From assembly GCF_037392515.1 (NCBI RefSeq), contig NC_090283.1, positions 34,860,249 through 34,924,248 on the forward strand: 64,000 nt of DNA. The letters run 5' to 3'. How positions within the stretch are numbered: position 1 is the stretch's first letter; each line of letters starts with the position of its first letter. The translations under genes and the position numbers were made by a program. The notes below the pieces were generated by a model that saw only the letters and a list, made by a program, of their open reading frames with translations, was not told the DNA's origin and did no database searches. Below are positions 3,001 through 50,440 of this stretch, piece by piece. This DNA comes from Haliotis asinina. Its lineage: Eukaryota; Mollusca; Gastropoda; Lepetellida; Haliotidae.

Positions 3001-6000
3001 CCAGATATCGGCATCAGCTCTCTGGATGGAGGAGGGGACTTCTACGAGGCTTGCATCAGGTGGTATCTCTCCGTCGACATGACGGCACGAGAGGTCCACG
3101 ACATCGGCCTCCGCGAGGTGGACAGGATCGTCGGCAATATGCAGAAGGTGGGACTCTCTTCATCATTTCCACAGAGTAGATACAGGAAAAACATATGGTA
3201 ATTCGTAGAAACAAATATGGTAATTATATCTGATAATGTACGACGACCATATTTTGGGGTTTAGTGTTATAAGTGCAAAGTGTCATATCGCACATGCCCT
3301 ATTTTATTTGCCAGTGAAGTGTAGTGTGCATTGCCCCATAAAAAAGGTATTGTGTGTACTGATGTGTGTGTTTTCCTTACAATATGATGTCCATAAGTGC
3401 TCTGTGTGTTGTGTGTACTGTCCCATCAACCAGCTTGTCTGCATATATCCGTGTATGTCGTGCGGGCTGTCCTATCAGCTGTGTGTTGATATCAGCTATG
3501 CCATGTGTGCTGTATGAAACGTCTAAGCTTGAACTAGAGTGCATTCTCTGCTAATGTATATCTATGGCTCTACTAACATTAATGTTGTTGTGTTGTTGTC
3601 CAAGCAGATCATGACGAAGCAGGAGTTCGCTGGGACTGTCCGCGAGTATTTCCAGGCCATCATGAATAACACAGACTTCTTCTTCGACACTGCGGTACGT
3701 GCAGTTTCAGTTCCCTTACATGGACAACCGATCACCTTCCGATATACTTACCAAGACCTGTCTCTACAAAGGGTGACCACTTGGTCACGTAGAACAGAAT
3801 TACATGGTCCCCAGTACATACATTTTATATGGTTGCATTAAGAATTCACTCGCTGACGTTAAATGTTTTAAACGGAACAGTTGCTAAACTTTGATAGCTG
3901 GTGTAGCACCTCAAAAGCTACGAACTGTTATCCGGTGCGAAGGAAATTATCTGAAGATTAGTACTTAAAAAAGGCAGTAATCTGGGCTCATTGAATAGTG
4001 TACTTAACGAGTCAAGATTTGCCGTCGTCTTGCAAATAAATGAGATATAATTAGCAGTATCTCGTGAGATTCTAGCTGCTATTAGACATCATACCTTTGA
4101 GTCGTTGGGGTAGAATTGTGGTTAAATGCTGGTTAAAGCCCATCTGCATCTCCGGAGTCGTAATATTACTACAAGTTACAAAACACATACACACATCATA
4201 CATTAAAAGGTTGGATGCGTGTTGTGGCACCAACACTGTCGCAACAAGTAGGATATCTCAAAACAATTCTGTCTTAGTGCTATCCACAGTTTTTCTTATT
4301 ACTCCTCTTAAATCAACAATCTGAACCGGACCCATGAGGACCATACCTGCCGAACTACCACAACTACCTAATTGTGTGTTGTTATAACAGGCAAGGCCGA
4401 TGCTATGATGAATAATTTTATGAAATATGTCCGGCATGGTAAAATGTCTTGGGAACAGGGCGTGAGTGACTCTCAGGCATGGTCAAATGTATTGGGGATA
4501 CAGCGTGAGTGGCTGTCAGGCATGGTAAAATGTCTTGGGGACATGGCGTGAGTAACTGTCAGGTTTATTCATCATCAGATAACCCAGCCAGCTTTCTATG
4601 TAGCATTCCCATTTCCAGGAGGACATCTTAGCGGAATTCCGTCATCAAATATTTGATGTCATAGAACCTACACTTGAAGACTTCTTCGTCAACCTGCCCG
4701 GTCTTCCTCTGGAGTACGTATCACAGTGTATAGTCAGCCTGCCCTGTCTTTCTCAAGAAAGTTTCACATTTTATAATCAGAAAGCCAAACATATGAAACG
4801 CATAAAGCAATTCACACGATGATTTAGATAATGTTTTAATAGTCTTCACATCATAAAAACCGGTATTTTAAGAACTGTCAAAAGTATATATGCAATTTTA
4901 ACCCCCAAATAAGGATTAAATGATGTTTCCTAAATCTACTGATTAAAGCTTGTGGAAATTGTTGGTTAGAACTGTCCCTCTACGATGATTACCTTAAAAC
5001 AGAATTGTATGCATCACGCGATGACGCTCTGTGATTTGACTGTGTCATATTCTTTGGGCGTGGGGCGTTGTGCTCAACATCGATCACTGAATCGCTGGTC
5101 CTTGCTTGAAAGTCCACCTGTAGTGACACAAGAGAAGCATCTTTGCATGTTCACGTTTTCACAGTGCACTCACATTATTGTGTTTCCTTTGATGATTCCG
5201 GTGTAATAGTTTGGGTTCTGGAGCATCTTCCAACCAGCAATGTCTTGAAACTATGCTGAAACATGAAATATAGAAAATATGTCGTCATATCCTTCTAGCT
5301 AGAAAACGTAAGTGGCGACTAACGGGATAGGTTGGTCAGGCTGGCTGACTTGGTTGATACATGTCATCTTATCCCAGTTGCGTAGATCGATGCTCATGCT
5401 TGTGATCACTGGATTGTCTGTTCCGGACTCGATTACTTACAGATCGCTGCCATATGGCTGGAATATTGCTAAGTGCGACGTAAAACTAAACTCACTCACT
5501 CACTCACCTTGAGTGGATTGCCCTTGAAGGAACCTATAAGAGTATCGCAGTTAAACAACAACCATCCCACCCTTCCCTTAAGGCATACACAAGGTGACAT
5601 AAACGATGGCCTTAGACAGGCCATTGAAGTTTTCGGAGGTCAATAAAGGGTACCTTAGGCTTTGTCATGTTTCTTACTGCCGAGGCTATATGATAATGTT
5701 TGCGTCATACCAGGGTGCGGGAGATGCCCAACGACGGCCCAGGTGGCTCCTACTCCACAGGATCTGCTGACGGCTCCAGACCGGGAATATTCTGGGCAAA
5801 CGTGTTACGGCCCCATGAATCGTGAGCTGTCTAACGTGCTTGAGCATGGCGGAAGGACTGTGGAGTGTGTATGCATGTTGTGTGTTAGTGTATGTTTAGT
5901 GTGGTGTGCGTGTGCTTTTTGTATTGACCCTTCATTCTTCCTTTCAATATTCGTAAATGCACAATGAAATGTGATGTCCTGCTGTTTATATGACGTAACT

Positions 6001-8608
6001 CAACTCCTATTACAGCCCCAATCTGACCATGATGGCGCTGTCCATCCATGAGGCCAACCCCGGACATCACCTGCAGGTGAGTGTCACCAAGCTGTTGGAC
6101 AAGGTACACATATCACTCTGTAGATGAAAGTCCAGTGGTTGGTATTCCTCAGGAATCTGTGATTCGCCCAGGTCACTCGCCTGTTTTGTTTTTGTTTTAC
6201 AGTATTCGTATAAATAATCCTCTGTGCTGTGTAATGCAACCTCTACACAAGTTTGCAATATCTCACACCGCCTATAATTTCCGTTTCAGCTTAGCTACTC
6301 CATTACATCCGACACCCCTAACTTCCGCCAAAAGATGGTGTCGTCTGCTTTGTACAAAGTTCCATTTGGTTTCCCCAGATACACATCATATGTTGAGGTA
6401 AAGTTGTGCTCTCATTTCTTAACTACATGAATGGCGTTCTGATATCAATACCGTGATATGACAAGCCTTCTTTTCAATTTCCGTGTTGGTAATTGTTATA
6501 ATGTGGCATTCTTAAATCCAGTTAGTATAAACGTTTGCAAGTAACTGTTGACAGAACGACTTAACCAGTAGTGAAGTGGGTCAAGACCTTTACAAAATGT
6601 TGGTTTTCGATAATAAGATCTCCTTGACACCAACTCACCAAAGCTGATCAGATCCTTTCAGTTACCTATCTCATAAAACAGACCACAATAAAACTGATCT
6701 CACGCTGTCCACTCCAGGGTTGGGCGCTGTATACGGAGTACCTGGGCGAGGAGATGAAGCTGTACAGAAATGACTATGAACTGTACGTAGTACATCATCG
6801 TGTGCATTATCGGAAATGGAACACTTCTCGAAATAATTAGTAAATAGTACAAATTGCAAAAAAAAGATGTGCGAGCATACCAGTAGCCAAAGCTAATTCA
6901 TATTAGAAAAAGTTATATTTGTATATATCCATCCAGATGAAAGATTTTCAGAGGAATGGAATTTTCCCTTAATTTTCCTTCATCATTTGTTTCCTCCTTG
7001 GTTTCATCATTTGCATTTTAATCTTGTAAATCAAATATACCTTACCTTTCATGGCATATAGGCGAAGTAACGAGTTTAAAAAACGCACCTTCGAAGAAAT
7101 ATAGATATTTGGAATAACGAGCTTTGTTTGCAATATCCAAATTGTACTATCAACGTGGTCGCATAAGGCTTTCGTAACCTATCCATGAATGTGTGTAACA
7201 GTATCCAGTTTATTCCCATGTCAGCATGGGACGCTACAGCTCAGAGATATTCCGGGCATGCAGACTGGTAGTGGACACGGGCATCCATGCTTTTAAGTAC
7301 GTACAGGACATCATGACATTCATCGTGCCATGATATCAATAACTTTCTCTGTTTGTATGGAATAAATAACCCATTTCATGTAATATACTATTTTCATTCT
7401 CTCGTTATTTTTATGCAACCCATTGCATTATCACCATCACACATATATAATCAGTAGCCATGTTGACACAGCTGGACACGCGACCAGGCCATTGACTACA
7501 TGTTAAACTACACGGCGGAATCTTATGACAGCATTGCAGTAGAGATTGACCGCTACATCACGTGGCCTGGTCAAGCTCTGTCTTACAAGATCGGGGAGAT
7601 CAAGATCCTGGAGCTACGACGGAAGGCGGAGCAGAAGCTAGGTGATGTGACGATGCATACGTAGCGGATAACTGCAGTTGCAGACATATGTTGAACATTT
7701 ATGTGTAAACATCGGAAACAATGCCATGAAAGTTGAGTAACTAATCACCCATGTCTTGTCAAGACAGGATTATTCAGTGAAGCAGCTCAATTGTAACTGC
7801 ACCATCCCCTGGTGTTAGCGTCACTGTTATGTGTGGACTTGGATTGTGGTGTGGTTTGGTTTTTTGTATTGCGCCGCACTCACCAATATTCCAAATAGTA
7901 AATAGTCAAGTCTGGACCAGACAATCTCATAATCAACAGCATAAGCATCGATCTACGTATTTGGGATACAATAACTAGTTTCAACCAAATCAGCGAACCT
8001 GACCACCCGGTGCGTTTAGTCGCCTCTTTCGACAAGCGTGTGTAGTAGAGGACCAATTCTAACAGCATGTGTGAATGCTTTGAACGTTATATAATTGGTA
8101 AATGCTGGCGGCTCTGTGGTTCCCTGTCGAGACAAACCTTTGGTTGTGTTATAGCACTTCTCTTCTGTTGCCACTACATATCAGCAGGTTACACGTTGGC
8201 AAGTTGTCAACAAGCCCTCCCCTGCATTCTTAGCTGAGGACAGATTCAAAATTTCTGATTTATCAATATTCATACTCTGCCTTGTACTCGACCTTCAGCT
8301 GTGTCCACAGCTGTGTCACTCAACAGAATACCAGACCAGTTGTTCGGTACCCGTCTATCGCCGTCAGCTTTATGTCAGGTTCTGTAATTTCAGGAACCAA
8401 GTTTGACATCCGTGAGTTTCACTCTGTGGTGCTCGAGAGTGGAACTGTGCCCCTGAACGTGCTGGAGGACCTGATCAATGACTGGCTGGACACGTACCCC
8501 GTGACCACCCCCAGACCGGAAACCCCAATATGTGGAGCTTCTTACAATGTACCTATGTACATATCAAGTCTCATATCACTCTACCTGTCGGTCTGCATGT
8601 ACATTTAA
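1..8608 (+). CDS. DUF885-family putative metallopeptidase, copy 1 (5' partial)
   Basis: Exons: <1-50, 330-460, 1295-1430, 1895-1963, 2339-2451, 2746-2827, 2980-3147, 3608-3694, 4619-4713, 5714-5821, 6016-6076, 6290-6397, 6718-6782, 7225-7296, 7472-7641, 8394-8608; about 575 codons are present. All joins keep frame at AG/GT sites. The product shows the family signature [12 protein letters not shown] (exon at 6016), whose His/Glu/His residues resemble a zinc site, and the family's conserved C-terminal part ([48 protein letters not shown]). The family is widespread in bacteria as exported proteins; the substrate in animals is unknown to me. The last 17 residues (MYISSLISLYLSVCMYI) are hydrophobic, which suggests a GPI-anchor signal or a membrane tail. 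The signal-peptide exon expected from the neighbouring copy lies left of the window. The donor after 1963 (GTTACG) is weak but matches the intron position in copy 2. Confidence 0.9.
585..695 (-). mobile_element. SINE family A fragment
   Basis: The segment reads tail-to-head: CTAGCAATATTCCA, then the 'cacagagggacaccag' block, then TTGTACCCATGCGGGAATCGA. It matches the other family A copies at 16138, 17083 and 50180. It is degenerate and truncated, and lies in a DUF885 copy 1 intron. Confidence 0.7.
1548..1866. repeat. 78-bp minisatellite in DUF885 copy 1 intron
   Basis: About four units of 78 bp (TACTTGTTCCGAG recurs at 1561, 1639, 1717 and 1795). The period is a multiple of three, so a 112-residue reading frame stays open across it; that frame is a by-product of the repeat. 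The array ends just before the 1895 exon acceptor. Confidence 0.9.
2048..2203. repeat. (ATGT)n microsatellite
   Basis: About 38 near-perfect ATGT units with one interruption (ATGC near 2181), inside the intron after the 1895-1963 exon. Open frames on both strands (YVCM and HTYI repeats) are artefacts of the repeat. Confidence 0.97.
4433..4562. repeat. 43-bp tandem repeat, three copies
   Basis: GGCATGGTAAAATGT-type units begin at 4433, 4476 and 4519 with some divergence. The repeat is intronic, about 60 bp upstream of the exon starting at 4619. Confidence 0.8.
5305..5508 (+). mobile_element. SINE family B copy
   Basis: It contains the family B blocks in order: GCGACTAACGGGATAGG, the 'ggtcaggctggctgacttgg' block, TCACTGGATTGTCTG, GGAATATTGCTAAGTGCGAC, and an ACTCACTCACTCAC tail. 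Compared with the copy at 27553, the 5' end is truncated. It lies in a DUF885 copy 1 intron. Confidence 0.8.
7850..8068 (-). mobile_element. SINE family B copy (reverse)
   Basis: The reversed tail (GCGCCGCACTCACCAATATTCC) comes first, then GACCAGACAATC and GACCACCCGGTGCGTTTAGT, matching the reverse complement of the family B copy at 27553. It lies in the last intron of DUF885 copy 1. Confidence 0.78.
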
Positions 8609-14200: not shown

Positions 14201-17200
14201 CATCTCCAACATGCTCTAAAGTTTCCAGTGCACCGTCTGACACTGTTCCAGGCAGTTTCTTTGCAATATCCATGAACACACACACTTCACTGCCGCTTGT
14301 AATCTGGCGTACCTTTTCCTGGGAACAAAAACATGATGCGGCTATGTCATTTAACCCACAAAACTCTAATGCAGTTGTGTTTTCCTTTTCAGTCCAATTT
14401 TCGGCAATGTCTTCAAAATAGACGCTTGCAAATTTGTCAGGACGGCCGATGAAAAAATACTGCCGAAGTACCGCAGTGACAATGTCCAATTCAGACTGCG
14501 CTACAGTACAGTTCGATTTCTTTCGGTTTTCATACACTATTGAACAGTACATGTAACTGCAAGTTTGTTCCGTAACTCCGTGCTTCATAATCACTGCTAA
14601 CACCAGGGTGAGGGTGACATACCCCGCAATGTCAATTTTTTATACTGGCTGCTGTTAGAGAAATTTGTTCAAATATGAGTGCTCGTTGAATAACCCTCGT
14701 TTGTTTTGGAGTCATAGAAGTAATTTCCGGGTTTTTGGCAGGTGCACTCTGTAATGACTTAAACCTAACCTGGTGCAATAATGAATGCAAATTATACCTG
14801 TGTGACTTCTTCTCAGATATTCTGTGTCATTTACTTTGGAATATTTCATGTTTATAATAATGAAACTAAAATGATTCTCAAATCTGGAAAACCTTGTTTC
14901 ATATTCTGAGACACTGATGCGTTTCAATCAAACTCTTTGATTATTGTTGAATTATTTTGCATAGTTGGATTGTTGTGCACAGTTGGTGGAGTTCCTGGAA
15001 TTTGGAGACATCCTGGAATTTGTAGCCAAGTGACGAATGGTTTAATGTCTACTTAACATCTTCAGGTTTGCCCCACATCAAACATTGTTTTCCTGAATAC
15101 TAGCATCGGCATTTGTTTCTTACACAGACAATCGTTGAAAGAACGGGGGCTGCAAGCAGTCTCCGCTCTGCAGACAGCTTTCGGGAATATGCAGCAATTC
15201 ATAAAAAATGTAAGACCTAATGTGATATTTGTCAGTCATAATGAGTTTCAAACATTTATATAAAATAATGATCTTTGTTACTGCGTTTGTGTCTGGTCTG
15301 TACTGCTTAAGCACCTCATCATACGTATAACCAGTTCATCATACTCACATTTCTTTCTGTTCGAGTTATACTGTTTTATGATATTCAGATGGACAGTGAA
15401 TGATTTGATTAGTATAATATATTAGTTTGTTAGCTGGAATAGACACAATGTTATCAACGACGCGTTTAGCTCCTTGTGTTCAGTTTTTGTTCAGTTCGGA
15501 AAGGTTTTATATTTTAATTTCACAGGAGTATATGCCCCACACCCGCCCCAATATCGGCATCAGCTCTTTGGATCGAGGGCGAGAATTTTATGAGGCTTGC
15601 ATCAGGTGGTATCTCTCCGTCAACATGACGGCACAAGAGGTCCACGACATCGGTCTCCGCGAGGTGGACAGGATCGTTGGCAACATGCAGAAGGTAGGGA
15701 CTGACGCATGAGAGTACTCGGTCATTGGGTTTGTCTATGTGGATATCTGCATTGTCTCCTCTGTATCAGTATATTAACGGCATTACATTTGGTTTCCAGA
15801 TCATGAAGGATCAGGGGTTTGAAGGAAGCGTCAGGGACTACTTCAGGAACATCATGAATGACACTCGTTTCTTCTTCGACACCGCAGTAGGTCACAGCTA
15901 CTGACTCTACAAAGCAGTTTATCACCTATACCCTAGTTACACTGTCTCTGGTGAACCTTGAACATTGCGGGCCTCTGATCGCGTTACAGTTGCAGGACAA
16001 AACACTGTAACACCGAATCCCGAACACTGTACTCTGTAATAACGAATCACTTTCCCTTACATAGTAACTGTGATCCGAAATCCATGACTGTGTATATTGA
16101 CACCCCATCTGTATCTCCTAAGATATGCCAGTAACAATGAGTAAGTTTTGTTTTACGCAGCATTTAGCATTATTCCAGCAATATCACAGCGGTCGACACC
16201 ACAAATGGGCTTCACATACTGTACTCATGTGGGGAATCGAACTCGAGCTGAGCGAACACTTTAACCACTAGGGCATCCGCCTCTCACGGTAACAGTGAGT
16301 CCTCTAACCCATGCCGCCGTAACAGCGATCCCCTATTCCTTTACTCTCTACTCGATAACAATGATCTCCTGATACAAGCCAGCTCGAGATCATCCACTAC
16401 AGGTTATGCTCGGGCCTTCCCTTGCTGTAGTCGCCGGGTACTTCTATATATTGCTTGTTTTACTTGTTGCTTACCGTCGGATTCAGCAATATTCAAGACA
16501 TACGGCGGCAGACAGTCCAGGGACCACAGGGACCTGAGCATCGGCCTACGCAGCTGGGATATGATGACATGTGTCAACCAAGTCAGTGAGCCTGACCACC
16601 CCATCCCATCGATTCATGGATTCAGCATGGATTGCTGAAGATCAATTCTAACCTGGATCTTCAATGTATAATGCCTACATCTTGTTTCAGGATGAGATGA
16701 TAGAAGAGTTTGAGAAGCAGATCTTTTCAGTGGTGGAACCAAAGCTGGAGGGGTATTTCAGTGATATACCAGGGTTACCAATTGAGTAAGTGATGCACAA
16801 ACAATACTTTAAACAAAACCAAAACGTCCATTATTGTAAATTCGTAGGGAGAACATCACGGGCGGGTTTCTATACAGGTGTGATTCTGCGCAGGGTCCGG
16901 CCAACGCCCAATGATGGTCCAATCGGGTCCTACAGCAGTGGATCAGCCGACGGTTCCAGACCTGGCATATTTTGGGCAAATGTTCTGCACCCCAAGTCAA
17001 GGTCAGTGCTAACACCTGTACATCATAATGTCGTCTGCCTGGCAGTTAACGTTGTCTTGTATCTTACTTCTCTCACACAGAGTGAGTGCGTATAGGTTTA
17101 TACAGTTTTTTAGAAATATTCCAGCAATATCACATCGGGGGACACCAGAAACAGGCTTCACACATTTTAACCATCTGGGGAATCGAACCCCGGACGAGCG

Positions 17201-22152: not shown

Positions 22153-25100
22153 TTAAGGCAGGGGTTTCCCCAGGGACTTAAACATCTTCATGGCCTTCAC
22201 ACCTCTCAACAGCTTGGTCTTGGCATTTTCAAACTTCTGAATAATGATCTTATTCTCGGGGTCTATGTCAAGTTTGCTTGGATCCGCCACTACTCTGGCT
22301 TTGATGAAGCCTTTCATGATGGCTTCATGCACGGAGATCTTCTGATGGGTCTTGTTGTTGATGTACTCGCCCGTCTCCTTGTCCAGCAGACCTTTTCTGA
22401 TGGCATCGCTGAACGGCACCTTCTCCTTCCGCAGCTGGTCCACTACACCACTCACGCTGTACGTCTTCGTCACAACCTCCGGCTTTGCATTGGGGTGGTG
22501 CCTTTCGTCATACTCCACCAGCACTAGTCCGCTGGAGATGGCGTCTGCTATTGGCATCTTCTCTCCAGTTTCAGTCTTGTATTCCGAGCAGCTGCTGTCC
22601 AAGATTCCTTTCTCCATTGCCACGTCGAGAGACAGTCTCTCGTCTGTGTGTGGATCAACTACAGCCTGGATGCTGAAGGGCCGAGTCTCGTGGGTTGTCT
22701 TGATTGTGATCAACCCGAAGGTCTTCTTCTCTTCGCGGATCTTCTGTTTTGACACTATCTCCATGAGTATCTTGCCGTCATTGATGGCTTCGTTGACGTC
22801 TATAGAGCGCCCGGAACGTGGGTTAATGTACAGACCGTTCGCTTGGTCGATGATTCCTTTCATGATAGCCTCCTGCAGAGTCATCTCGTTGTTGTTGTTC
22901 GGGTCCAGCACTCCCTGGTGAAATATCAACACATATTATGGCAACATCTGATGTTTGAAAACATAAAAATAATTTTAAAAATGTAGAAAAGTGATACTAA
23001 GTATTTGAGGCAGCAACAAAAATAATATTGATTGGTACATATCTACTTCTAGTTCGACATATTCATTATGCACACACTATCAAAAGCAAGTGTATCTCAG
23101 AAGGTTACACTGGGACTACATGACTCCTACCTTGACTATAAACGTGTGACATTCCTCAACCTCCTCTGTCACAACCTCCTCGGACGTTGTCTCCTCATGC
23201 TGTGTCTCCACCGTCACCTCACTACTGACTGGCATCTCCTCGCGTGGCTTCTCATACAGTGCTAGCGATGCCTGGGACTTCTTGATGTCCTCAATATCCA
23301 GATGTGTGTCCCAGAATCTGACAACCACACACATACTCTTACCATATGCCAACACTGTCTGCCTATATCTGGCAACCATACACACATGTCCAATTACCAT
23401 ATGTCAACAACACATTGCTATACATCTGTCCACAAAACCTGACTCTTTTTCAGAGTAGCCATCCGTTAAAAAAAGTCGTTCTGACAACCTTAGTTAAGAG
23501 AATATTCCTTACAGACCTATGAACCATCTAAAGAACTGCTTGCGCATAGAAACACAGAGATACGTCATCTTAGATGTAGTCGAAGTGTTGGACAGGGTGC
23601 ACTCTTTATGCTGTATTAATGTTATAGTGTAGTGGCACTTTACATACTTTATGGCCACCAATCAGTAACAGTAGGAAAGGGATTAGGAAGCAGAATGAAG
23701 ATATTGGACTGACTTGACGAAGTGTGCTGTAGTGATGTATCTGAGCTGGTCCCACTTGTCACACACCAGCAGGTGCTTAGGCTGCTTCAGGAGCTCCACG
23801 ATCACCTTGAACGTCTCCCAGTACGCCCAGAAGTCCTACATCAGGAATACAATAGCGTGATACTGTTCTTTTGCTTCTACTTTACGATAAGCTACATGGA
23901 CATAAAAGTGTTTTCAGAAAACAGCTAAACTCGACACCTTTTACACATTTTGATCTGACATATATTCATTTGGCGTTGTTTTGCACGTGTTGAAAAGAAA
24001 AATGACATATTTACATGAAGTATATGAAACTAATAATCTTCAGAATAACTATTGATGTAAAAGAGGTGTTTCTTAAATATGTGCCAAGAAGTATCCCTAT
24101 CGTCTCTGTGTGCTGCTAAGTGAATCCATGTCAGCGTCAGTGTACGTACACTGTATTTCATCAACATCTCCTCCAGAGTCTTGATCTGCACCACCACAGT
24201 CGCCAGCAGCTCGTCATCTACAACCAACCAACCAACTCACACTCACTAACCACGTATATATGTATCTGTTCATCCACCAATATGTCCATCAGATATAAAT
24301 ATCTACGTCACATCACACTCCTTTGTGCATGTGATACATACATGTCAGTGATCGGTATCTATATATACATGTATGGGCTAGTATAACTTTGCACTAGCAG
24401 ATTACATTTACGTAGTTTCCACATACCGGAAACACCTCCTTCGGGCGCCTCTTCCATGATCATGCGCAGTCGCTCCATGCGTTCCTCCAGCTCGCTGTAG
24501 TCGGAATAGCCTGTCCAGTTCTTGCCCAGTGTATCTTCGATGTACTTTAGGATGCGCAGCAGCTCCAACTTGTCCGTCTCCTTCATACACTGAAGGATGG
24601 ACACCTGGACAAACATCACGTAATACGTCAGTCGGGTGGACATAAGGGGCACCGCCCCATCGTGCATCCCAACATGGACATGACAGCCAGGCTTTCTAGA
24701 CATTTAACAGTCAAACTGCCGGATGATACAATTTCTTTACTAAGGTGTAAACACGGTGAAAATATCATCAAATACTCATTGAAATTAATGTGAGAAGAAT
24801 CCACATGAGAAGAATTATTGCAATATACGCGTTTATCGTTATTCTTAGATTTGTAGATGCTTAGCAAGTAGCTGAGGTAATGTCAATAACGACAAGTAAC
24901 TTGGTTAGTACACATCGGATGACACACACCGAAGTGAAACAGTAAAATTGTGGGTGATGCCAAAGGCGTGCTGTGCTGTGGAAGTCTTCCGATAAAGTAT
25001 GTGTTGATATCATTGCGTTTATTTGTTATCCATATAATCTGTTATCTCATATTTCCGTTTACCATCGACCTGTGAAGATCCGGGTTAGAATTGATCTTCA

Positions 25101-28100
25101 GTAAGTAACCCATGCCTGTCATAAAGGGCGACTAACGAGATCGAGTGGTCAGGCTAGCTGACTTCGTTGACACATCGTATCCCAGTTGCGCAGATTGATG
25201 TCCATGCTGTTGATCACTGGATTGTCTGGGCCAGGCTCGATTATTTACAGGCCGTTTCGATACAGTTGGGATATTGCTCAGTCCGGCGTAAAACTCAACT
25301 CACTCACTCACACACCCAATCACTCCGTTTACAGTCAGAAAATATGATCATCTCTGACTCTGGCTATGCTAATGTATACGGTGCCTACTTTGTATCTTCC
25401 TGAAAGGAAACTGTCTGTGCATGGAAAAGGGAGTAGAAAAATGTGTCGTATGGGTGGAAACATCAGGGTGTAGAACTGTCTTGGAAGTGATGGAGTGTCG
25501 ACGGGACGTATAAGACGTAGGACTGGCGTTTAGATAGAACATATAGAGACTAGAACAGACTATAGACAGAATGACGTAAGGAATACTGACAGTAATAATA
25601 GGTCATTTGTAGGAGATATTTGCATATTCACGAGGGTTGATTGTCTCAAGTCTCACATTGGTTAACTTCGTCATAGAGAAGCAGTTTATAATGAACCTTG
25701 CATGGTGTGCTAAACGGATGTCTACACAATATTACGTCAGTATGAGGACACTGTTCGCTGTGACATACCAGTGATATAGGCTGGAGTTGTGGGACGGGCT
25801 GAGAACGTATCAATCAACCCTCGTACGTGTACATATTCAGATATACAATTCAGGTACATGTTTTTTCAGGTGTGCAAAATTCGAGAAAAAGCCTAGGCGG
25901 TCACACAACAGAACGCTTCGGCAACACAACATTGTCACATCAACACAACGTGACGTCCGCAAGCATAGGCATATAGTTAACGAGGGAAACCACTGCGGTC
26001 CACTGCACACGTTTTGAAATGAACAGATGTAAGAGCACTTTATGAGCTTATCACGTTTACCTGTATGGAAACACAAGCACCTTTGTTTAGTCATGCCAGC
26101 CAACCACCCGAATATACACATGCACAGTCTGCTTAATTTAACACATAAAAACCTCTTGCCCGATAGCTGTGTCTGACACAGACCATGCACCTTTACATTT
26201 CTTATTAATGTAACTTGTTCTGAGGTATTATCCACTTAATATCCTTGTGTGTGACTTAGCCGAATACTTAGACTTTCAAATACGTGGAAAAACAGTTGTT
26301 ATACGCAACACAGGACGAGCAGACGACAACACAGACAAGCACATGGCCCGTTACCTTGTCCTTGGCAGTCTGCATAGAGAGATGAGGTTATCAGTAGATG
26401 CAGATCAGTGGAACGTTAATACAGGATTTAATGCATACCGAATGATGAACATATCAAGTTAACACTGAGAAGCGTCATGCCATTCTCTTACAATTATATC
26501 GTATAGCACAGCCACAAAGCAGACAACCTGTAAAGCTTAAACTGTTCCAGATGTTATATGCTTGCATGACAATACATAATGCAGCTTGTAAAGCCACACA
26601 CAGAGACACAGAGCCTGTCGTATAACCTGCATCGTCATATTTCCGCGGAGGATGTTCACAGAGTGACACTGCTGCGTGCTGCTTATTAGATGCTTACCCA
26701 GCCATGAGTATCTTTATATTATCCTTGCTCAATGTTCACCCAAACTCCTTGGTGACCGATGTTTACATAACTCTCCCCAAGCCCCTCCTTTCACGTTCAG
26801 GTCATCTTAAGTGTGTAAGCCTTAGTCTCTTAATGTAATTCTAGGTTAATCACTCTCGCTTCCTATCTCAAGTCAATCCCAGGGATTCCTGACATAAATC
26901 TCATTATGGACAGTGCTAAGGCTTCGCACATGGTAAAAACACACCTTCATATTATATTCACTAATGTCCATAAAATAACATATGGCCATATACTCTTTAC
27001 ATGTCAAAACACGACGTTAGATTTAAGATGCAGCTTTGTGTGGTCTGTGCTACTGTGAGGCGAGGCTGCTGCTAGCAGATCCTACCCTGATCCAGTCCCT
27101 CCAGTGTTATTCCCGATGACCTACCTCATCCTCGTCCCAGTCCTTGAAGACAATCAACATGAAGGCCAACATCTGGTAACCCAGGCGCTTCACTGAAGTC
27201 GTCCACAGTGACAGCAACTGCAGCCGGAGTCTGGGCAACACAAACAGTTTCAGTGTAATGTAGATTGAAACAGGCAAACTTTAGACATTTCTTGGAAACA
27301 ACTGGGTTCAAAGCCGCTTTACACTATGACAACTATAATACGACCTTAAGTTGGTTGTCAGCTGTGAACATTAAAAAGCAGCTACTCCAGTCAACAAAGT
27401 GACACAACAGGTTTTGGAACTTCAAACCGCAGAGGACTCCCTGTAAACGTGTACGTGTGTATTTCGATCCAGTTAGGAATAAATATCAAGGCCACAGTAA
27501 GGGAAATGCAATTACCGTATTATAATGAGTTATGTCAGTACCTGATTGCTGCACCCGTGAAGGTCCCGGGGTAGAATAGGCCTTCAGCAACCCATGCTTG
27601 CCATAACAGGTGACTATGCTTGTCGTAAGAGGCGACTAACGGGATCGGGTGGTCAGACTCGCTGACTTGGTTGACACATGTCATCGGTTCCCAATTGCGC
27701 AGATCGATGCTCCTGTTGTTGGTCACTGGATTGTCTGGTCCAGACTCGATTATTTACAGACCGTCGCCATATAGGTGGAATATTGCTAAGTGCGACGTAA
27801 AACTAAACTCACTCACTCACTCACTCACCTGATTGCTGCGTCCACTGCCTCGCCAGCAGGCCCTGGGATGACCAGTATCACGGCCGGCACTTCTCCGGTC
27901 TGTCCACGACTGTTGGTGACCTGACAACATACACACAACCAAACATATTTAAATCCGATAGCAATTACGATATACAAGGGCACAAATCAGATTTGGACAA
28001 TCCAGTGTGTAAACAAACTCAGAACCACGAACTTAAATCAAACAATTGAATTCGATTAACGCATGCTCACCCTCCACTTCCGGCGGTTGCTGTTGTCGAC

Positions 28101-31100
28101 AATGGTAATAGTTTCGCCTTCATTCAACTCGATCTGCAATCATACGTAGGAATGACTGCTAATGAAAAATGTCTCAGCTTGTCAGTTCGAAGTATTATGT
28201 CCACTTAATTGAATATCGATAGAGACACCAAATGAACGTGTTACCTCGTCTGAGCGGAAGTCTACCAGCACCAGGGCAGGGCGTGGGTCAGTCAGCTTTT
28301 TGAGTCGGAGAGGAACGGGGACGATGTTCCTGCTGCGGTCAAACAAGTTGTCCACCTTGGTCTGCCACTGCAGGTAGGCCAGAAGGACGTCCTGGGCACA
28401 CGGACACAAATAAGTCACGATCATAACATGATGGCAGTAAAACATGCCTGGATGCAATCGGCCAATCACAAGTTTTAATTCAACTTGCTAGTCTGCTACA
28501 TCATTGCGTGAGTATGTGAGTATATACATGTATACTTCTATTTTCAGATGCCATTTAGAAATAAAGGTGTGAAGACTTATAGGTTGTTTGTTTTTGTTCC
28601 GTTTGTTAACAATGCAAAACAAAAATATTGTGATGAAAAGATAAGTACAGTCGTTCAATACAAAGCTAGCGTACTTGGAATAAACTGACAACACAGTGCC
28701 TGACAAACATGTTCGCGTCTTACAACCGTGGGACGATCCATTTAATGCTTGATTTGAAAACAGTGTTTGATCAAATGAACTATGTTTATACTTGACTAAA
28801 CAGTAGCTCATGAATTATGTTGTTATGGTACAAGAGAATTGAGATGAACACGACCTCTCCGTCATGTAGAACAATGTTACTTGGAGAGGTAATCCTAGGA
28901 CACGCAGACAATGTTTACTTTTAACTAATCAGATATGCTGTAAACAATACCAGGTTTAGTGTTACCAAATTCAGTGTTCTAAATTCGGCTTAATGTGGTT
29001 TGCGAATGACAGCCATATTGGCGAGTCTGTATGGACGTACTCTGATCTCATTCAAGATGGCCCTGGCGTCCGCCTTGTCTCCATTCAGCTTCTGTCGGTC
29101 GAAAGACAGGTGGATCCTGGACAGTGTGGTTTTCATCCAATATTCTGCCTCCTCCACCTCATGGAAGTACTGCAACACCAACCTCGCTCAGCTCAAGCCT
29201 CACACGGGAGGAATACATGAAACCCTTACATAGCAACATAACCCTCAAGGAAACCCATACATAGAATATTACCTTCGGAAAACCCTTATATAGCAACATG
29301 CTCCTCGAGGAATTGCATACATAACAACATTACCTTCGGGGAAAGCCGTACTAAGGAATACAAACTTCCAAGAATCCTCTAAATACAAACATAACCTTTG
29401 AGGAAAATTGAGACACAAACCTAAGTTTGGGGAGGTGGATATTTCGAACATGTGCAGAATGTTGCCCTCGTGGTGGTGAGATGGTTCGAGATGCTATATT
29501 GCAGTACTCAACCTCATGGGGTGCATTACAGAAGGGTACTGATGCCCTTGTATTAGTTTTAAAATGCTAAAACCTTAGTGTTGTGTTCAAGTACTAATCT
29601 CCTAGTGCTGTATAACAACACTGACCTCCTTGTGTTGGATTACTGCACTGACCTCCAATAATGCCCTCCTGGTGTTGCATTACAATACTGACCTCCTTGT
29701 GGTGCATTTCAATACGGACCCCCTTGTATTATGTTATCGTACTCACCTCCTTTTATTGTGTTAGAGTGCTGACTGGTTATTGTACTGACCTCCTGGTAGG
29801 CTGCTGCGTTCTTGAGATGGACCTCGGAACACTGCATCGTGGTCAGGATCCACTTCCAGTTCCTCCTGACGGCCGTGATGCAGTTCTAAACCCAGAACAT
29901 AGCTCATGTACACTATAAAACCTTCCGCCTACCCTTCTCAGATACATCCATGCATTTATACTATGCTATAGGGACAAAGAGTAACACTGTAACTTTATTC
30001 AAAGTACAATGAGATAATAGCCACTCTTCGACTGACATAATAAACAACATTGTTCAGAGTGTTGTCGTGTATCAGCACAAAAATGTCCAGTTTTGACTTC
30101 TATGATTGGTTTTTAACATCCCCCTATTTGGGCGTGTATACATTTATCTATACATTTATTCCTCTCTATACGTTTGTCCTTTTTTGTTTGTGTAAACTCA
30201 CACCCTGATCAGGACTTATTTATAATTGTCACAGATGGGGTGCCAGTCAAATCGCCCCAGTTACAAAACACCCCAGCAAATTTGGTCAAAATGCCCCAGA
30301 TCTTTGGTCAAATCGCCCCAGGTTTGGTCAAATCGTCCCACGGGGATAGTCAAAATGCCATCGCCATAGTACAGCCAGATGTTCCAAGTGGAACTAGAGA
30401 ATACATGGATCAGCCAACAAGGAACAATACATTATATGGTCCCTGGTTACTATGTGACTATACTGACTTATCTAAGCCCTCCATCGGTAGGCATCCCTGC
30501 TCCCAATCAAGGTCCTCCTGCTGAAGGAGAGTAAAGTGAGAGCAAGAATCTGGGACCGATTAAACCAGGATCTTTGCTCTCTGAACAGAGTTCAGGAAAG
30601 ACCAAATTTCAGTTCAGCAGCTACATTCATGGACCAGCCCACCATGCAGACAAAAGTTTAAAAGTTAAAACTGATTTCCTGTATGGGGAACTTCTGTATG
30701 AGGATTATGATATCCCAGTTGACAAAACTCGAGATAGTTTTATACGTATTATATATACCATACTTGTTATGATTACTCAAAGTCATTTGTTGACAAAAAA
30801 AACAAAAAAAATCTATCCATTTACAGCATTTACAATAAACGTATTATACAAACCTGTAATTTACATTGTTGTCTATACACGAATACTCTTTTTGCTGTTT
30901 GCAGTTTGCTAACAGGAAATGTATCAGAAATATTACTACATAAATATTATGTAAAGAATATTGTATGGAAGTTGACAGAAACTCTGTATTTATGGCTTAT
31001 ATTAAACCATATTAAGTAAATTGGGGCATTTTGACTACCCCCTTGGGGCGATTTATAAAACCTGCTGTATTTTGACCAAATTTGCTAGGGCGTTTTGTCG

Positions 31101-50179: not shown

Positions 50180-50440
50180 TGGTGCGTTTGGTTTTAGGCT
50201 GCTTTTAGCAATATTCCAGCAATATCACGGCGGGGGAACAACAGATATGGGCTTGACACATTGTACCCATGTGGGGAATCGAACCCGGGTCTTCAGGGTG
50301 ACGGGCGAGGGCTTTAACATGATGGCTACCTCACTACCAAATTTTATCGGATCGATGCACACACTGTGGATTGTCTGGTCCAAATTTGGTTACTTCCAGA
50401 CCGCCGCCATATAGCTGAAATAATGCTGAGTGCCACGTTA
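50180..50440 (-). mobile_element. Composite of SINE A and SINE B pieces
   Basis: 50190-50335 is family A in reverse (GCAATATTCCAGCAATATCA, GTGGGGAATCGAACCCGGGT, GGGCTTTAACATGATGG). It is followed directly by a forward family B 3' part (GGATTGTCTGGTCC, CCGCCGCCATATAGCTGAAA, TGCTGAGTGCCACG). The two heads meet near 50340. Nested insertion or head-to-head joining could explain it. Confidence 0.75.

Follow-up and report, generated by a model that had tools for sequence, protein, structure and literature searches.

A SINE on the 5' splice site of a plakin intron in Haliotis asinina, with a tail that probably supplies the donor in use

Introners recruit their 5' splice site from the target-site duplication (TSD) that accompanies insertion, create new introns and are, in most cases, thought to move as DNA (PMC9860276). 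The canine merle SINE is described as lying in reverse orientation on an exon-intron boundary of PMEL, flanked by a 15-bp TSD and with its tail taking part in the splice signal (PMC7349775). Exonization of Alu elements and cryptic splice sites derived from them have likewise been described (PMC7349775, PMC11321964).

Here we describe a SINE in a plakin gene of Haliotis asinina, within a stretch of 64,000 nucleotides (the window), and consider it highly probable that this element inserted across a 5' splice site, that the donor was duplicated, that the near donor, rebuilt by the SINE tail, is the one used and that the insertion has been tolerated. The locus resembles Introners in that the TSD of a mobile insertion would supply a splice site and the element would be spliced out. 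Introners make new introns, whereas the plakin SINE appears to have entered the first bases of an existing intron and to have replaced that intron's donor; a stretch of 311 nt with its own acceptor remains outside the SINE, so that the place was not intronless before and the intron is not wholly new. The merle SINE shares with the plakin SINE the reverse orientation on an exon-intron boundary, the TSD and the participation of the tail in a splice signal, but it lies on an acceptor and disturbs splicing through its tail length, whereas the plakin SINE lies on a donor and its tail gives a near-consensus site. In the Alu cases, as in plakin, splice signals are offered by antisense SINE sequence; there, as described in those sources, the SINE becomes an exon or disrupts splicing, whereas in plakin the exon is unchanged and the SINE is intronic. 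What sets this case apart from Introners and the merle SINE is the replacement of the donor of an existing intron by tail sequence, and a limited literature search turned up no other donor replaced in this way by a SINE tail.

The plakin exons and the two donors

The plakin gene lies on the minus strand of the window, and the four exons around the insertion (A to D; Table 1) form one open frame of 136 residues, which stays single if exon C ends at 27829. The exon A-D protein matches the Pfam domain SH3_10 (E 6.9e-19), and a search of solved structures (E up to 0.001) returned only two sequences, those of desmoplakin (3r6n, E 2.8e-9) and plectin (3pe0, E 9.9e-7). The alignments each span the join of exons C and D; that of plectin is ungapped, and that of desmoplakin has a 3-residue gap shortly after the join. 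Downstream of exons A to D, an open frame at 22156-22935 contains Plectin repeats (Pfam). Frame and homology together give good support to AATCAG as the last bases of exon C. Searched against the whole genome (E up to 10), the exon A-D protein gave four matches, all of them exons of the plakin gene itself, so that neither a paralogue nor a second haplotype can serve as an empty site.

Table 1. Features of the plakin locus around the SINE, in window coordinates; a slash marks the exon-intron junction.
Feature	Position	Strand	Description	Basis
Plakin exon A	28245-28391	-	donor GAG/GTAACA, -6.6 kcal/mol	frame, U1 pairing
Plakin exon B	28071-28133	-	donor AGG/GTGAGC, -9.0 kcal/mol	frame, U1 pairing
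Plakin exon C	27829-27920	-	92 nt, end of SH3 domain; terminates GCAGCAATCAG	A-D frame and homology
Plakin exon D	27125-27230	-	next after C, joined in phase 2; donor GAG/GTAGGT, -10.4 kcal/mol	
Near donor CAG/GTGAGT	27823-27831	-	presumed used; +3 onward is SINE tail	U1 pairing
Far donor CAG/GTACTG	27536-27544	-	presumed ancestral; 287 bp into the present intron	U1 pairing, frame
SINE	27553-27826	+	274 bp; head at 27553, tail towards exon C, antisense to gene	family copies, flanking repeats
SINE tail	27808-27826	+	CTCA repeats, (GTGA)n on the gene strand	
Exon-side copy of 13-bp duplication	27827-27839	.	contains final 11 exon bases and GT	
Intron-side copy of 13-bp duplication	27540-27552	.		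direct-repeat comparison

The direct repeat ACCTGATTGCTGC is present at both ends of the SINE, identical at 13 of 13 positions and with 287 bp from start to start; the bases outside it differ on either side, and 13 bp is therefore its maximum extent. The initial annotation had described a 13-bp duplication across the exon end and the GT of its donor, and this proved exact, each copy abutting the SINE. In minus-strand orientation the sequence is AATCAG/GTGAGTGAG at the near copy and AATCAG/GTACTGAC at the far one, so that the old donor does still stand 287 bp into the intron, as had been claimed. The near GT could derive from the target or from the tail, as a (GTGA)n tail could also start with GT, and from +3 onward the bases are SINE in both cases. 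The SINE tail thus provides the donor bases after GT, again as first described, and intron positions of the donor of a coding exon are filled by SINE sequence.

Pairing with U1 was expressed as a duplex energy against the 11-base 5' end of the genome's own U1, ATACTTACCTG, found in the three U1 genes that were read. At least 42 matches to the U1 gene exceeded the cut-off in the genome, and a tandem array of U1 snRNA genes, mostly at 635 bp spacing, lies at G000:C13:43860295-43885421 (L013-L018 and further places), with 39 copies of equal score listed. The energy is -13.1 kcal/mol for the near donor (CAG/GTGAGTGAG) and -7.2 kcal/mol for the far donor (CAG/GTACTG), a gain of about 6 kcal/mol. 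Such energies, computed for unmodified RNA, reflect donor strength only crudely, and their yardstick here is just the three other plakin donors, of exons A, B and D. The far donor falls at the weak end of these yardsticks, yet within their range. The earlier proposal that the SINE turned a weak donor into a near-consensus one is supported by this pairing, although the old donor pairs no more weakly than that of exon A and so was probably sufficient for splicing. The far donor may therefore still see some use, with a premature stop.

Use of the far donor would lengthen exon C by 287 nt, and the first whole codon, directly after AATCAGG, would be TGA; the near donor maintains the reading frame and the far donor does not. 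The near donor is most likely the one in use, because it pairs better with U1, precedes the far donor and, unlike it, keeps the frame.

SINEs usually integrate by target-primed reverse transcription. A SINE copy would have integrated across the 5' splice site of the plakin intron, antisense to the gene, and a staggered cut would have duplicated 13 bp, namely the final 11 exon bases and the intron GT. The exon-side copy now runs into the (GTGA)n tail, giving CAG/GTGAGTGAG, and the copy past the element is CAG/GTACTG. With the near donor used, the SINE would be spliced out within an intron of 598 nt, formerly 311 nt as counted from the far donor. The insertion was presumably tolerated because the duplication plus the tail rebuilt the donor that it interrupted.

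The SINE family and its junctions across the genome

When 40 of 2,093 first-look candidates were scored, the plakin copy itself came back together with 39 further near-full-length copies, 96-99% identical, and one match of 43 bases at 93% identity. Flanking direct repeats are present at all nine other copies inspected (L002-L010), being 12-16 bp in eight of them and, in L009, sitting inside a longer repeat of 65 bp. The element therefore belongs to a multicopy family with flanking TSDs, and it has the simple-repeat 3' tail of varying length that is typical of a SINE; on the gene strand the tail is (GTGA)n with 2 to 5 units among 100 listed sites, a range bounded by the search pattern itself. 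Together, the duplication and a multicopy family with flanking repeats of its own uphold the proposal that a SINE insertion copied the donor. Exact copies of the tail junction number 17,368 in the 1.14-Gb genome. Five partial relatives of the element, 81-89% identical, lie within the window (5307-5507, 25112-25315, 7898-8037, 16509-16607 and 50367-50438), and an Rfam scan of the window gave no family above its cut-off. Nin-domain SINEs, which carry a deeply conserved domain, were reportedly found in molluscs among others by Piskurek and Jackson in 2011. We take the plakin element to be probably of this type. Passages of a source that cites that work make no mention of a splice-site role for Nin-domain SINEs (PMC3899998).

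AG/GTGAGTGAG followed by SINE body within 12 bases was found at 367 genome sites, and at none in the reversed control. A sample of 102 of these sites (101 loci and the window's own) was inspected, of which four were dropped for having 120 bp around the junction identical to another, leaving 98 distinct junctions. An exact repeat of at least 9 bp was present 120-480 bp downstream of 46 of the 98, a few at unusual element length, and in 28 of those 46 it covers the AG/GT. In three pairs (L046/L047, L040/L041 and L076/L077) both members share the 18 bases that precede the SINE, as though segments already carrying the insertion had later been duplicated. The census junctions gave 55 peptides that end there and have 28 or more residues, and 54 of them were scanned against Pfam (E up to 0.05), a procedure that would miss exons without a Pfam domain or too short for 28 residues. 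The matches were to aldo/keto reductase (E 3.6e-11) and to SH3_10 (E 0.0017, plakin), with three weak ones to Hyd_WA (0.0035), DDE_3 (0.0094) and AA_permease_2 (0.045).

Among the 98 distinct junctions, confirmed coding donors number two, that of plakin and one other (L034; G000:C9, around 10325032-10325063, minus strand), where the SINE lies on a coding donor of an aldo/keto reductase gene, confirmed by homology. The exon ending ...TDYVDLYQ terminates at CAG/GTGAGTGAG; a 17-bp repeat, GATCTGTACCAGGTGAG, spans CAG/GTGAG and recurs past the SINE as CAG/GTGAGACAG, and the next exon starts MHLWDNATPVEETVRTLDD. The joined protein matches Pfam Aldo_ket_red (E 6.1e-26), and its alignment with solved reductases runs through the join (best E 2.6e-28). 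The old donor at this locus was already strong, at -11.4 versus -13.3 kcal/mol at the SINE-tail donor, and splicing from the far donor would bring in 273 nt, stops included. L034 is a genuine second case, built in the same way as the first, and the plakin event is not unique.

Several other junctions were considered and set aside. At L024, L037, L053, L066, L111 and L113 the far copy reads AG/GTA, with at most 20 residues open upstream; L024 has a 12-bp duplication and a far copy, CAG/GTAAGT, that is a consensus donor, with at most 6 residues open upstream. L082 (38 residues open) and L035 (132 residues open) had no Pfam match at E 0.1. Non-coding or very short exons may lie at any of these loci. 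L033 looks transposase-like by its letters; the DDE_3 match came from one scanned peptide, with no locus assigned. The Hyd_WA match lies below its cut-off and comes from a repetitive peptide. At L093, also with no Pfam match, the open frame seems to run on across the far copy, so that no splice site is needed.

Two further loci are noted as observations. L055, a possible third case, has about 70 open, exon-like residues that run straight into a diverged SINE, with no duplication detected; Pfam up to E 1 gave nothing for its peptide, and structure matches were at E 0.27 or worse. L090 (turned locus, junction at 802) has an exon-like stretch of 58 nt with a strong pyrimidine tract, ending AAG/GTGAG at the SINE tail, and a 14-bp duplication with the far copy AAG/GTGAGA; it is a candidate exon, and no match was assigned to its peptides in the Pfam scan.

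Age of the insertion, selection and alternative histories

Set against the majority of ten copies, the plakin SINE has changes in 4 of 268 columns (1.5%), the first 6 tail columns being excluded; over the same columns eight of the other nine copies have no differences and one has 1. As these nine are the best matches to the plakin copy, the divergence measures private changes and not the age of the family. At that divergence the chance that no change has fallen on positions +3 to +6 in the far copy is, by arithmetic, about 0.94, and with only 4 private changes in the 268 columns the far donor probably retains the ancestral bases; the ancestral plakin donor was very probably GTACTG or nearly so.

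The plakin insertion is known from one assembly and may be polymorphic. In the most serious competing reading, though an unlikely one, the allele is harmful or mildly so: both donors are used, a share of transcripts carries 287 nt of SINE with stops and is degraded, and the assembly happens to have caught a polymorphic copy. Both donors do have GT, and the U1 pairing of the far one is close to that of the exon A donor, but the near donor is a much better match and is reached first. Recent insertions evidently exist in the family, as eight of the ten compared copies are identical outside the tail end; the plakin copy, however, has four private changes and so is not among the newest. A tolerated insertion spliced from the near donor is the reading preferred here.

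The same preference holds against the idea that the stronger donor was selected and carried the SINE to fixation. The improvement in U1 pairing is what such an adaptive gain would predict, but random insertion appears sufficient, and we regard selection for the donor as very improbable. AG precedes the tail at 367 of 17,368 junctions, or 2.1% versus 1.6% expected (AG 1/16 x tail phase 1/4), a rough estimate in that the patterns behind the two counts differ slightly, and this genome-wide comparison gives no sign that the family targets AG/GT sites. An animal genome typically holds about 200,000 donors. With 17,368 insertions placed at random and that many donors, rough arithmetic predicts that a tail would meet a donor about once or twice in a genome, which makes selection unnecessary. 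To find two cases in 98 distinct junctions, when the analysis set out from one of them, suggests that tail-at-donor insertions are not strongly selected against; it does not show enrichment.

The possibility that the two 13-mers arose by chance or by an older local duplication, with the SINE merely between them, can be dismissed almost entirely, as no supporting point was found, the 13-mers abut both SINE ends and all nine other inspected copies have a flanking repeat of their own.

Implications for the SINE family and for donor tolerance

Insertion into a highly constrained spot in a gene can be nearly invisible when, as would be the case here, the TSD restores the end of the exon and the tail restores the start of the intron. 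Orientation would matter for this, as a sense insertion at a donor would place the SINE head after GT, giving GTACCC at -7.2 kcal/mol versus GTGAGT for the antisense insertion. A broader proposal, which we put forward tentatively and hold to be somewhat less likely to be right than wrong, is that the (GTGA)n family is donor-safe: antisense landing across a 5' splice site would let TSD and tail rebuild a near-perfect donor, such insertions would escape selection and donors would be repeatedly replaced across the genome, leaving the old donor as a downstream decoy and making the intron side of the donor a microsatellite. The plakin locus illustrates cleanly how a gene can probably go on working after such an insertion. 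Several donor replacements of this kind may exist in one genome, given its 17,368 exact tail junctions, and because thousands of copies share the same tail, the tolerance of donors to insertion and the competition between duplicated donors could be measured directly with ordinary RNA data.
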